Positions 6,876-18,924 of a stretch of DNA of 22,288 nucleotides are shown here, piece by piece (the stretch's first letter is position 1; each line of letters starts with the position of its first letter). The stretch spans positions 1 to 22,288 of the IMG/VR virus record IMGVR_UViG_3300027861_000212. One strand, given 5' to 3'. The notes under the pieces are model-generated. The model saw only the letters and a list, made by a program, of their open reading frames with translations, was not told the origin of the DNA and ran no database searches. The position numbers and the translations under genes are program-made. This stretch comes from a virus.

Positions 6876-7467
6876 ACGCAAAGGGGCGTACGAATACGAT
6901 TTACAGTGGCACCAAGATCAATCGTCAATGGTGTGTGCACGTGCAGCCGAAGCAGCTCTCGTGCGCGGCGAAGATATCCGTACGTTCATCGAGAATCACG
7001 CGGATGATTACGACTTCATGTGTCGAGCAAAGGCGCCGCGTTCGAATAATATCGTGATGCGTTGGCCCGAGTATGACAACGCCGAAATGCCATTGGCCAA
7101 CATCGTCCGTTATTACGTGTCGAAAGACGGCGGAACGTTGACCAAGATCGCCCCACCAACCGGCGAACCTGGCACATGGAAGCGCGCCGCACGTGTGAGC
7201 GATACGTTATACCAACAAGTGATGGCTGAGATAACTGGAACCAATGACGGGTTTGTCGATGAGGATAGCGCAGGAACGCCACACGACGCCCGTATCCACA
7301 CGAAAAACAAATCGAAGCATACCATACGCGAAATGGGTATTTGTGTCGGCTGGCGTGTAACGGATTGTTCCAACGTGAAGAATTTCGACCGCTCAACGAT
7401 CAATTACGATTATTACGTTGCGGAGGCTGAAAAACTAGTCAAACCACTATTGACGAAAGCGTCATAA
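6862..7467 (+). CDS. Family B DNA polymerase, C-terminal part (thumb); split gene
   Basis: The 201-residue product starts IKRKGAYEYDLQWHQ, the Lys/Tyr element that directly follows motif C in phage family B polymerases. It continues with helices I recognise from the thumb (AAEAALVRGEDI, PRSNNIV, VRYYVSKDGGTLTKI) and ends in IHTKNKSKH to AEAEKLV. It therefore continues the protein that stops at 6129. Both pieces are in the same reading frame of the window, separated by the endonuclease. The start at 6862 lies inside the endonuclease end, with AAGGG about 10 bases upstream, so it is translated as a separate subunit, probably coupled. Compare the split gp43A/gp43B polymerases of some T4-related phages, where the pieces associate. 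Confidence 0.85.
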   Translation: MSKIKRKGAYEYDLQWHQDQSSMVCARAAEAALVRGEDIRTFIENHADDYDFMCRAKAPRSNNIVMRWPEYDNAEMPLANIVRYYVSKDGGTLTKIAPPTGEPGTWKRAARVSDTLYQQVMAEITGTNDGFVDEDSAGTPHDARIHTKNKSKHTIREMGICVGWRVTDCSNVKNFDRSTINYDYYVAEAEKLVKPLLTKAS

Positions 7468-13147: not shown

Positions 13148-13501
13148 TTAAATGACATCCTGAACAGAAATTTGAGTCGCACCGAATGGTGTGAGTATAC
13201 CAGCATTGACGGTGTATGTCCTCGTCGGTAAATCGAAGTTAGTCTCGAACGATGTTAACTGTAATACACCATCGGTTCGAATGATGCGGTTTTTTATAGC
13301 CGCTTCCTTAGCTGACAGACTTGACGCTTTGTTCATCACCTGTTCGAACCACGGCGTACCATCCGTAATGTCACGAAAATATTCACCGAGGAATAATTTT
13401 AAACGAGTCGTGACGGTTTGTGCCACTTCGTTGATCTCGTCGGTGAACTGTTGACCCGACGTTGTGATGTCGCCGTCGGCCTGTAATTGTCTCACGGTCA
13501 T
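13148..13501 (-). CDS. Baseplate wedge protein, gp25/W-like, 117 aa
   Basis: Features of the GPW/gp25 family: GDITTSG near the start, a helix ending in RLKLFLGEYFRD, then DGTPWFEQVM and a helix leading to RIIRTDGV, with a C-terminal strand TRTYTVN. In T4 gp25 and P2 W the conserved LGE-x-F-x-D segment helps initiate sheath assembly on the baseplate. The ATG overlaps the stop of the upstream spike gene (ATGA). Family call by pattern and by position before the J-like gene. Confidence 0.85.
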   Translation of the reverse strand: MTVRQLQADGDITTSGQQFTDEINEVAQTVTTRLKLFLGEYFRDITDGTPWFEQVMNKASSLSAKEAAIKNRIIRTDGVLQLTSFETNFDLPTRTYTVNAGILTPFGATQISVQDVI

Positions 13502-14112
13502 GATGGGTCACCTGAACTGTTGATAACTGGATCGCCGCCCGCTTGATACGTACCGGCAGCGTGTTTATGGTCATCACCAACGTTAACGCCGTTGTGTGTG
13601 AATGTGGGCGCCTTAACGTCAAAACCTTGACACTTAATGTCAACCGTTCCGTCGTTCTTCAACCATACGTAATTGGTCGCATTTTTATCGCGAAGTCGAA
13701 TACCGTTGTTCTCGAACGCGGTCAATTGATTTGGTTCGGAACGTAGACCAGGGAAGAACACCGCGTCACCGTAATCGTGGAAACGTAATATCGGGTTTTC
13801 AGCGACACCACCCGTCGTGTTCCACGCGTCGATACAACGCTGTGAAAACATGATGAACCCTTCATCGTTCGGATCGATTTGATGTTCTACGCAGAATTTA
13901 CCGCCCGCAAAATACACGGGTACTTCTATCAACGGCGGTGGTACGAACGTTTTACCGTTGACGTCTATACGTACAATCCCTATTTGTATTTGTGCGCGTT
14001 GGGTAGTTGGGTCAAACGCCAAAACGTGACCGGGTATAGACGTGGCGACGTCCTTCATCATTTCTGAAAAAGTACGTTTAAATAGTTCGGTTAGCGTTGC
14101 GGTCTGAGTCAT
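13498..14112 (-). CDS. Membrane-puncturing spike, Gp138-like, 204 aa
   Basis: The N-terminal half resembles the Gp138 OB-fold domain (IPGHVLAFDPTTQRAQIQIGIVRI, then IEVPVYFAGG and the DEGFIMFSQRCIDAW strand). The second half is a narrow beta-helix-like region ending in DDHKHAAGTYQAGG, where H-x-H near the tip suggests the metal-binding apex seen in phage spikes. The trimer would cap the hub and pierce the outer membrane. No ribosome site is seen before the ATG at 14112; instead a candidate late promoter -10 element ends seven bases upstream, so the mRNA may be leaderless. It is separated from its usual neighbour, the hub gene, by the RNA region. Confidence 0.85.
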   Translation of the reverse strand: MTQTATLTELFKRTFSEMMKDVATSIPGHVLAFDPTTQRAQIQIGIVRIDVNGKTFVPPPLIEVPVYFAGGKFCVEHQIDPNDEGFIMFSQRCIDAWNTTGGVAENPILRFHDYGDAVFFPGLRSEPNQLTAFENNGIRLRDKNATNYVWLKNDGTVDIKCQGFDVKAPTFTHNGVNVGDDHKHAAGTYQAGGDPVINSSGDPS

Positions 14113-14118
14113 TCGTCA

Positions 14119-14129
14119 AGTATATCACC
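14119..14129 (-). promoter_or_regulatory. Candidate late promoter -10 element before the spike gene
   Basis: On the minus strand this reads GGTGATATACT, an extended -10 (TGnTATACT) identical in 11 bases to the element before the sheath gene at 22040-22050. The last T is 7 bases from the ATG at 14112, which would place the transcript start at or next to the start codon. Confidence 0.5.
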
Positions 14130-14159
14130 ACAATGGACAAAATAAAAAGTGATAAACTG

Positions 14160-14219
14160 TTGACAGTATTGTCAGTGATGTGCGATATTTGCGTTGTGAA
14201 GTGTTTGACATGATACAAT
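14160..14219 (+). promoter_or_regulatory. Tandem promoter candidates for the RNA region
   Basis: Promoter 1: TTGACA (14160-14165), 18-base spacer, GATATT (14184-14189). A small inverted repeat TGACA-GTAT-TGTCA (14161-14174) overlaps its -35 and could be an operator. Promoter 2: extended -10 TGATACAAT (14211-14219) with a poor -35. Either would start a rightward RNA near 14196-14226 that contains no credible coding frame. Confidence 0.5.
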
Positions 14220-14435
14220 CCGAGCAGAAGCGAGCCGTAAATCAGCGGATGGGTAAAAGGTCTGACTAAACAGTTCACTTAATGTGACGAAAAGTAATAA
14301 CCCGTTTCAATTTGGCGGTCGAAGTAATCACATTATTTGATAAACCCACTCGTTAACGGGAGGTGATTATCTCGCAGGGGAAGCGTTAGAACCCGAGCAG
14401 ACGTAACACCGCGAGGCGTAACCGATGCACAATTT

Positions 14436-14459
14436 TAAACATATTGGTTGAGTGTTATT
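14436..14459. repeat. Left arm of a perfect 24-bp inverted repeat
   Basis: Begins TAAACATATTGG and ends GAGTGTTATT. It is the exact reverse complement of 14624-14647. The bases just outside do not match, so the repeat has sharp ends. Confidence 0.95.
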
Positions 14460-14524
14460 TGCATACTAAAAAGTGATTAGTCGGTAAAGTCGACGGACGT
14501 GACGACGAGGCGTGATTTAGTGGA

Positions 14525-14572
14525 GGGTGGGGCGACTTAGATAGCCCTTGGGTTCGAATCCCGCTAACACCC
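14525..14572 (+). ncRNA. tRNA-like three-way element with a T-arm but no standard tRNA body
   Basis: GGGTTCGAATCCC (14550-14562) is a textbook T-loop (TTCGAAT closed by three G-C pairs). It is preceded by a second hairpin, GGGGC/GCCCT with a 10-base loop, and both are enclosed by GGGTG (14525-14529) pairing with CACCC (14568-14572). No seven-base acceptor partner for TAACACC lies at tRNA distance, and no D arm or 7-base anticodon loop was found. It may be a degenerate tRNA, a tRNA mimic inside the larger RNA, or part of an unrecognised fold. Confidence 0.4.
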
Positions 14573-14623
14573 GGTGAAAACTCTAAAAGTAGTCAGGTGT
14601 CATGGAGGAAAAAACTTCGGCAC

Positions 14624-14647
14624 AATAACACTCAACCAATATGTTTA
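14624..14647. repeat. Right arm of the perfect 24-bp inverted repeat
   Basis: Exact reverse complement of 14436-14459. It ends at 14647, one base before the first base of tRNA-Asp at 14649. Confidence 0.95.
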
Positions 14648-14648
14648 T

Positions 14649-14725
14649 AGCGATGAAGGGGAACTGGTTGACCCACATGCCTGTCACGCATGAAATAGCG
14701 AGTTCGAGTCTCGTCATTGCTGCCA
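14649..14725 (+). tRNA. tRNA-Asp (anticodon GUC)
   Basis: All arms can be drawn: acceptor AGCGATG pairs with CATTGCT (one G-T); D arm GGG/CCC with GG in the loop; anticodon stem CATGC/GCATG perfect, loop CTGTCAC with anticodon GTC after T33; variable loop AAATA; T arm GCGAG-TTCGAGT-CTCGT; discriminator G, as required for Asp; encoded CCA end at 14723-14725. It reads Asp GAC/GAU codons; GAC is very common in this phage's genes. It lies on the plus strand, opposite to the flanking baseplate genes, in the same transcription unit as the upstream RNA candidate and the downstream terminator. Confidence 0.9.
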
Positions 14726-14875
14726 AATTAGAAGTCACTCACACCACGCAATCAGAGCGGAAATGTCATACTTCATCATTCGACTCACGCTGGGTACTCA
14801 AGAACGCCGAAACGGCAAGCGAAAGCGAGTTGCAAGTCCAGCTCCAAATTCCCAAACAATGCACTGCGACCTTTC
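14726..14875 (+). other. Non-coding stretch after the tRNA with two small hairpins
   Basis: No gene or second tRNA was found. Two adjacent hairpins are visible: GCCG-AAA-CGGC (14806-14816), and an overlapping alternative GCAAGC with a GAAA tetraloop pairing to GC and TTGC (14815-14833, GAG bulge). The stretch is probably the 3' trailer of the tRNA/RNA transcript or another part of the structured RNA. Confidence 0.4.
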
Positions 14876-14900
14876 GCCCTCCTCGTGAGGGCATTTTTTT
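14876..14900 (+). terminator. Strong rho-independent terminator of the RNA/tRNA unit
   Basis: GCCCTC (14876-14881) pairs with GAGGGC (14887-14892) around CTCGT, followed by A and seven T. It ends a rightward transcript just before the 3' end of the convergent hub gene at 14906. Confidence 0.9.
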
Positions 14901-14905
14901 ACGTG

Positions 14906-15763
14906 TTATCTGAACCCGACGATTTTAGTCGACCACGCGTCGCCCCAGGTATCACCCGTGTGTGACAATCTGAAAATACGATAAACACCTTTACCAGCCG
15001 ATTCGGGTATGTCCACAAAATACAGGTTACTAAAATTAAACGTCGCTAAGTCCGATTCGATTTGATAACGACCACCGATCCGTATCTTCGGGTTTAACCT
15101 GATGACAACGTCCGCACCAACTTCGGTAATTTCGGGTATACCTTCCATACCGGTAAACTGCGAAACGATATGTACCGCCCCGTCACGAAAGAAACCGTCT
15201 TTAACGACGACGACTTTCTCGTTCTCAATAACGTAACTAAACTTTTCAGCCTGAGCGAGTTGGTCGAGGTACACGCGCGGATCACCATTAAGCACTTGCC
15301 CGCGTGGATATGGCGCAACATCTTCGAACTGTGTGTCGTCAATCACGATCGGATAACCCAACGCTTTGACACACGCGCGAATGATATCAGTGATCCGTGC
15401 GTTTTTACCCAACGTTTCGTTTATCTGTGTTGGTTCATCTGTCAGTTTTCCACCACGACAAATCAACCGTGTGATGGTATCGGGTCCGCGTCGCTCACGT
15501 ATAATGTTTCGGATCGTGCCGATGAATATCGAATCAATTGTTTCTTTATACCCGCAACGCAACGTTAGTTTTCCGCCGCGCTTAAACGCTTTGTTTGCTG
15601 TTTCGGCTGATAAATTGAAGATCGATAAGTCACAGTAACTCGTAAACCCGCCGAAGTCGTGAAGCACTTCGAACAACGCTTTAAACTGTCGACCGTCAGT
15701 TGGCGCAATGAACTGAACGTCATCGATCAACACTTCCCACCTGCGACCACTATATTCACTCAT
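14906..15763 (-). CDS. Baseplate hub protein, gp27/gpD-like, 285 aa
   Basis: The layout fits the late-control gpD / gp27 hub family: an N-terminal strand WEVLIDDVQFIAP, the beta segment GKLTLRCGYKETIDSIFIGTI, then ICRGGKLTDEP and a helical domain (IIRACVKALGYPIVI, DPRVYLDQLAQAEKFSYVIEN-type region) and a closing beta domain. This trimeric hub would sit on the tube end and hold the spike. It overlaps the upstream plug gene by 8 bases. It is unusual that the spike gene does not follow directly: the RNA/tRNA unit lies between. The family call rests on order and pattern, not on a motif unique to the family. Confidence 0.75.
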   Translation of the reverse strand: MSEYSGRRWEVLIDDVQFIAPTDGRQFKALFEVLHDFGGFTSYCDLSIFNLSAETANKAFKRGGKLTLRCGYKETIDSIFIGTIRNIIRERRGPDTITRLICRGGKLTDEPTQINETLGKNARITDIIRACVKALGYPIVIDDTQFEDVAPYPRGQVLNGDPRVYLDQLAQAEKFSYVIENEKVVVVKDGFFRDGAVHIVSQFTGMEGIPEITEVGADVVIRLNPKIRIGGRYQIESDLATFNFSNLYFVDIPESAGKGVYRIFRLSHTGDTWGDAWSTKIVGFR

Positions 15764-18895: not shown

Positions 18896-18924
18896 TTGAC
18901 GGTGTTGTCAATATGGACGATAAT
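18896..18924 (+). promoter_or_regulatory. Sigma70-type promoter for the rightward clamp cassette
   Basis: TTGACG (18896-18901), 17-base spacer, GATAAT (18919-18924): 5/6 and 5/6 matches at ideal spacing. Expected start near 18931, 30 bases before the ATG at 18961. This rules out the longer reading of that gene from 18838. Confidence 0.7.

Follow-up and report, generated by a model that had tools for sequence, protein, structure and literature searches.

A modular phage RNA unit between baseplate genes that very probably represents an undescribed, tRNA-linked RNA family with a core complementary to the 16S rRNA 3' tail

The DNA analysed here (the window, 22,288 nt of the phage record IMGVR_UViG_3300027861_000212) contains a 793-nt gap (14113-14905) between two minus-strand ORFs of 204 and 285 amino acids, corresponding to the baseplate spike and the baseplate hub (Table 1); the hub ORF matches the PHROG family 'baseplate hub' with an E-value of 3.5e-59. 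A preliminary description of this region had claimed a plus-strand promoter, the absence of any coding frame supported by a ribosome site, a tRNA-Asp and a strong terminator, all opposite in strand to the flanking baseplate genes, and these claims were borne out. The tRNA shows a cloverleaf with a GTC anticodon, and a hairpin followed by a T run forms the terminator. The sole long plus-strand ORF in the gap (14641-14913, 90 amino acids) overlaps both the tRNA and the terminator, has no Shine-Dalgarno sequence ahead of its ATG, and found no match in a PHROG search; the gap contains no credible ORF. It is read here as a noncoding RNA gene on the plus strand, with an expected transcript from about 14196 to 14900.

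Table 1. Features of the gap and of its flanking genes, in window coordinates.
Feature	Position	Strand	Basis
Baseplate spike, flanking gene	13498-14112	-	annotation of relatives
Promoter TTGACA-18-GATATT, with overlapping operator TTGACAGTATTGTCA (14160-14174)	14160-14189	+	consensus match; recurrence
5' cassette, contains CCGAGCAGAAGCGAGCCGTAA	14194-14287	+	shared with L019, 85% over 98 nt
Helix P_a, 14199-14206 with 14268-14280, bulged in window	14199-14280	+	counterparts in relatives compensated; window pairing taken from the sequence itself
Helix P_b, AATGTGA (14281-14287) with TCACATT (14328-14334)	14281-14334	+	sequence; relatives
Conserved core domain, 71 nt	14357-14427	+	R1 match, 39 bits, E 1.2e-8
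GGGAGGTGATT, 11 contiguous pairs with the 16S rRNA 3' tail	14358-14368	+	computed pairing
Stem H1 of core (CTC/GAG and GGG/CCC)	14371-14397	+	sequence compared with relatives
Hairpin H2, ACACC-GCGA-GGCGT, GNRA-type loop, one A-C mismatch in window	14406-14419	+	covariation
Perfect 24-bp stem around a variable cassette, 14436-14459 with 14624-14647	14436-14647	+	inverted-repeat search
tRNA-like module, T-arm TGGGTTCGAATCCCG and GGGTG/CACCC stem	14525-14572	+	read from sequence; not called by ARAGORN
tRNA-Asp (GTC)	14649-14725	+	cloverleaf; Rfam 52.9 bits
Intrinsic terminator, hairpin 14876-14892 then T run	14876-14899	+
Baseplate hub, flanking gene	14906-15763	-	annotation of relatives and PHROG

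The promoter is of the sigma-70 type, with a TG before the -10 box, and its -35 box lies inside the dyad TTGAC-N6-GTCA. About one consensus match of this kind is expected per shuffled sequence. The TTGAC-N6-GTCA operator-promoter also stands in front of the RNA in the relatives' gaps, and because it recurs both there and in the window, the promoter is very probably real and part of a phage regulon, which the shared sites apparently constitute. Within the window, the dyad is followed by a -10-like box at 1181, 7450, 14160 and 18896 on the plus strand and at 18911 on the minus strand. The 328-nt hub-spike gap of two Vibrio phages, vB_VchM-138 and CP-T1 (L025 3471-3798 and L063 3353-3680; loci are given L numbers throughout), keeps the operator-promoter, and a search of L025 with the core model R1, described below, gave no core match in that gap.

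Homologues of the hub led to 24 and then to 35 viral loci, two overlapping sets that comprise about 36 contigs. Some of these relatives have no gap, L002 and L023 carry a protein gene in it, and in others a promoter of this type accompanies 330-1100 nt of noncoding sequence. The RNA is co-oriented with the late genes in L004-L008, L018 and L019, and opposed to them in the window, L003, L010, L013-L017 and L060. The gap sequences are mosaics: stretches of unrelated sequence lie between blocks of 40-170 nt that share 75-97% identity, and individual blocks also turn up in unrelated phages (Klebsiella phi1_146050, Vibrio D79 and K172, Shewanella 1/41 and 3/49). A blastn search of phages with the whole gap of the window returned the tRNA-Asp and short chance matches only. 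Comparison of the homologous gap in related phages found an RNA unit retained, with covarying base pairs; together with a promoter and terminator of its own and a co-oriented tRNA, this favours the earlier proposal of a structured RNA that would be co-transcribed with a tRNA.

Part of the earlier claim of dense inverted repeats stood: the gap holds a perfect 24-bp stem, beyond what chance provides (the longest perfect repeat in 300 shuffles averaged 10 bp and never exceeded 18), but the unit as a whole is not exceptional, its folding energy being only mildly better than that of shuffles (z -1.55 and -1.68). Among the relatives, helix P_a is rebuilt with different letters in different members, and its strands compensate in nine cases. 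P_b varies little, although L122 has one compensated pair in it, and what it encloses differs, being a tRNA-Arg (ARAGORN) in L005 and different sequences in other relatives. Judged by these comparisons, most of the unit outside 14357-14427 consists of exchangeable, stem-mounted modules, some of them tRNAs or tRNA-like.

Several observations concern such modules elsewhere. In L091 (1980-2055, Vibrio phage K172), a 41-nt cassette, GCGTAGGATGACCCGCAAGC..ATCGATAAGAGTCAT, sits on its own stem after four tRNAs, and the same cassette is found on different stems in L003, L010, L017 and L008. Atypical tRNA-like genes missed by ARAGORN, with paired acceptor stems, GGTTCGAATCC-type T-arms and unusual middle parts, lie at about 5430-5540 in L114, about 4325-4425 in L006 and about 3880-3955 in L003. 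Just 5' of P_b, L005, L006, L008 and L107 carry an rrn boxA-like CTTTAACAAT, a possible aid to antitermination through the structured RNA.

The core was modelled separately, by aligning nine relatives with the window left out and using the H2 hairpin as the only structure (model R1). With filters off, the sole strong match of R1 in the window was 14357-14427, the next best having an E-value of 0.41, so that the window belongs to the core family by a model built without it. R1 also has a match in Shewanella phage ZP9, where a tRNA-Gly follows at a distance of 102 nt. A hub profile search of genome contigs gave one distant locus, in which R1 had no significant match. A DNA pattern for the core, searched in IMG/VR, retrieved 24 loci, 20 of them new, and 13 of these 20 reached R1 E-values of about 0.001 or better (the weakest of the 13 being 0.0011). 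L106, L114 and L115 match the pattern and adjoin tRNAs, but were excluded from the counts at R1 E-values of about 0.1-0.5. L102, L116 and L120 also fit the pattern, but were discarded as chance hits in GC-rich sequence (R1 9.2 bits, E 1.7).

Named phages with the core are Salmonella 9NA, E. coli Bas82, Klebsiella Carvaje and KP13-27, e270.1, and Shewanella 3/49 and ZP9. L117 is 100% identical to Salmonella phage 9NA, and led to the unit between head genes of phages from Salmonella, Escherichia (BASEL phage Bas82) and Klebsiella. Across 29 distinct cores, 99.3% of the H2 cells are paired, against at most 54% in slid controls, and three of the five pairs change on both sides. In L119, the 3' end of the RNA (7371-7464) matches the host small RNA RprA with 63.9 bits (gathering score 70); this match overlaps the core and ends in an RprA-type terminator.

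The most conserved stretch of the core, GG[AG]GGTG[AG]T[CT], complements the 3' tail of 16S rRNA, and all its variants retain the pairing through G-U. Contiguous pairing in the cores averages 12.1 nt versus 6.2 in shuffles, a comparison in which the IMG/VR pattern itself partly selects for complementarity, so that independent evidence comes only from the baseplate relatives, from L085/L089 and L093, and from bases other than GGAGGTGRT; loci reached by synteny or through other cassettes are free of this selection. The pairing reaches 14-16 nt in L060, L093, L107, L110 and L117, and is 4-7 nt before the starts of the window's own genes; runs of 10-12 nt, G-U allowed, occur by chance at five other places in the window. 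L085 keeps the fold with only 6 bases paired. The comparisons show a core composed of a predicted 16S 3'-tail complement, a stem and a covarying GNRA-type hairpin, recurrent in unrelated phages. It is highly likely that such a family exists and that the unit belongs to it, as a previously undescribed, modular, tRNA-linked phage RNA; the titles and abstracts returned by open-access literature searches on related terms contained no description of it. The finding widens in this way from one gap to an undescribed, Rfam-negative RNA family.

The complement could simply be a ribosome-binding site, GGAGGUGAUC serving minigenes or leader peptides before tRNA genes while the hairpin controls translation or decay. 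Short ORFs do occur at plausible spacing, such as MPATRL in L103/L107, MAARK in L108 and MLAGKPQTVGKARCETF in L117, and about half of the lineages have a start codon at usable distance. However, the window, L089, L110, L113, L121 and L122 have none at such a distance, the peptides are unrelated between lineages, and the spacing between the site and the conserved bases that follow shifts by 1-4 nt, so that no frame is kept. A conserved start codon and ORF after the Shine-Dalgarno-like stretch, as in an ordinary leader, was not found across the core loci. Since the start codon is not conserved and the spacing varies, the site is probably not an ordinary ribosome-binding site, and this reading is considered unlikely.

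The core is closely linked to tRNA genes. ARAGORN detected 12 tRNAs in 30 core loci, all of them within 400 nt of the core and on its strand, although this zone makes up 10.8% of the sequence (binomial P about 2e-12, with relatedness among loci ignored). This linkage, and the boxA-like CTTTAACAAT before P_b in some members, would suit a leader, processing or stability element of tRNA operons, in which the core protects or matures co-transcribed phage tRNAs without any ribosome target. Such a role appears improbable, given that an ARAGORN tRNA is present in 9 of the 30 core loci and absent from 21, that the tRNA can also come before the core, as in L119, L125 and L127, and that the conserved 16S complement would be left unexplained. 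As a separate observation, tmRNA-like tag frames (ANDDVVLMAA, ANEEMYLAVA, ANDQTFLAVA) were noticed in unannotated phage RNA arrays, at 2329-2361 in L082 (Klebsiella phi1_146050), 1186-1218 in L126 (Shigella DS8), about 1100-1132 in L128 (Klebsiella KP13-27) and about 6875-6905 in L119. L082 and L119 have weak Rfam matches to permuted tmRNA, and the arrays in L128 and L119 also carry the core.

The explanation preferred here, with a probability of roughly 0.5, is docking to the 30S subunit. During infection, the RNA would pair with the anti-Shine-Dalgarno tail of the subunit while carrying tRNA modules, and ordinary tRNA processing would release the attached tRNA and tRNA-like modules, or they would be kept close to the ribosome. 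Because no start codon is conserved, the 16S-complement site would serve for docking or competition rather than as an ordinary ribosome-binding site. The stronger version, in which a widespread phage RNA pairs with the whole anti-Shine-Dalgarno tail and presents tRNAs and tRNA-like modules on the 30S subunit, is offered as a tentative and rather doubtful proposal; if it were true, phages would need nothing but RNA to redirect host translation initiation or to compete with it. Alternatively, the unit might be an anti-defence or moron locus in which small RNA modules serve as decoys for host nucleases, as the swapping of cassettes between unrelated phages and an array adjoining annotated anti-CRISPR genes could suggest. 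Nevertheless, no target was identified and the core, unlike the cassettes, is conserved, which makes decoys the least probable of the readings considered. For 30S docking, pairing with the 16S 3' tail provides a specific, mutable prediction on the long-standing question of what large phage RNAs do, and named members such as E. coli Bas82 and Salmonella 9NA make the role of large phage RNAs beside tRNA genes directly testable.

The preliminary description had left a choice between an RNA of the GOLLD or ROOL kind and a new class. With Rfam 15, neither GOLLD nor ROOL was matched at gathering score in the window and its relatives. Relaxing the limit to E 10 for the window region brought up neither, and the covariance search over RNA families found only the tRNA there; by these models, GOLLD or ROOL membership was rejected for every locus searched. 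The option of a new class is the one supported. In the broader sense of large noncoding phage RNAs near tRNA genes, the unit is nonetheless of a GOLLD/ROOL-like kind. OLE RNA is likewise large and ornate, with a ribosomal link proposed through bS21 (PMC12054373), but it is bacterial rather than phage-borne, and no OLE match was found here in Rfam. Phage tRNA arrays resemble the unit in the tRNA-Asp of the window and in the tRNA genes that adjoin the core elsewhere, yet here a conserved non-tRNA core and atypical tRNA-like modules missed by ARAGORN are added. ROOL shares a phage-borne, large RNA near tRNA islands (PMC12286853) and differs in its conserved elements as well as in the missing Rfam match. 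GOLLD is similarly phage-borne, several hundred nucleotides long and beside tRNAs, whereas in the present family the core measures about 71 nt and includes a 16S-tail complement, and many members are much shorter than GOLLD. Since GOLLD lies near tRNA islands, sometimes with tRNAs in its linker, and is reported to bind ribosomes in pull-downs (PMC12286853), the RNA described here may, by analogy, work like GOLLD without being a member of that family.
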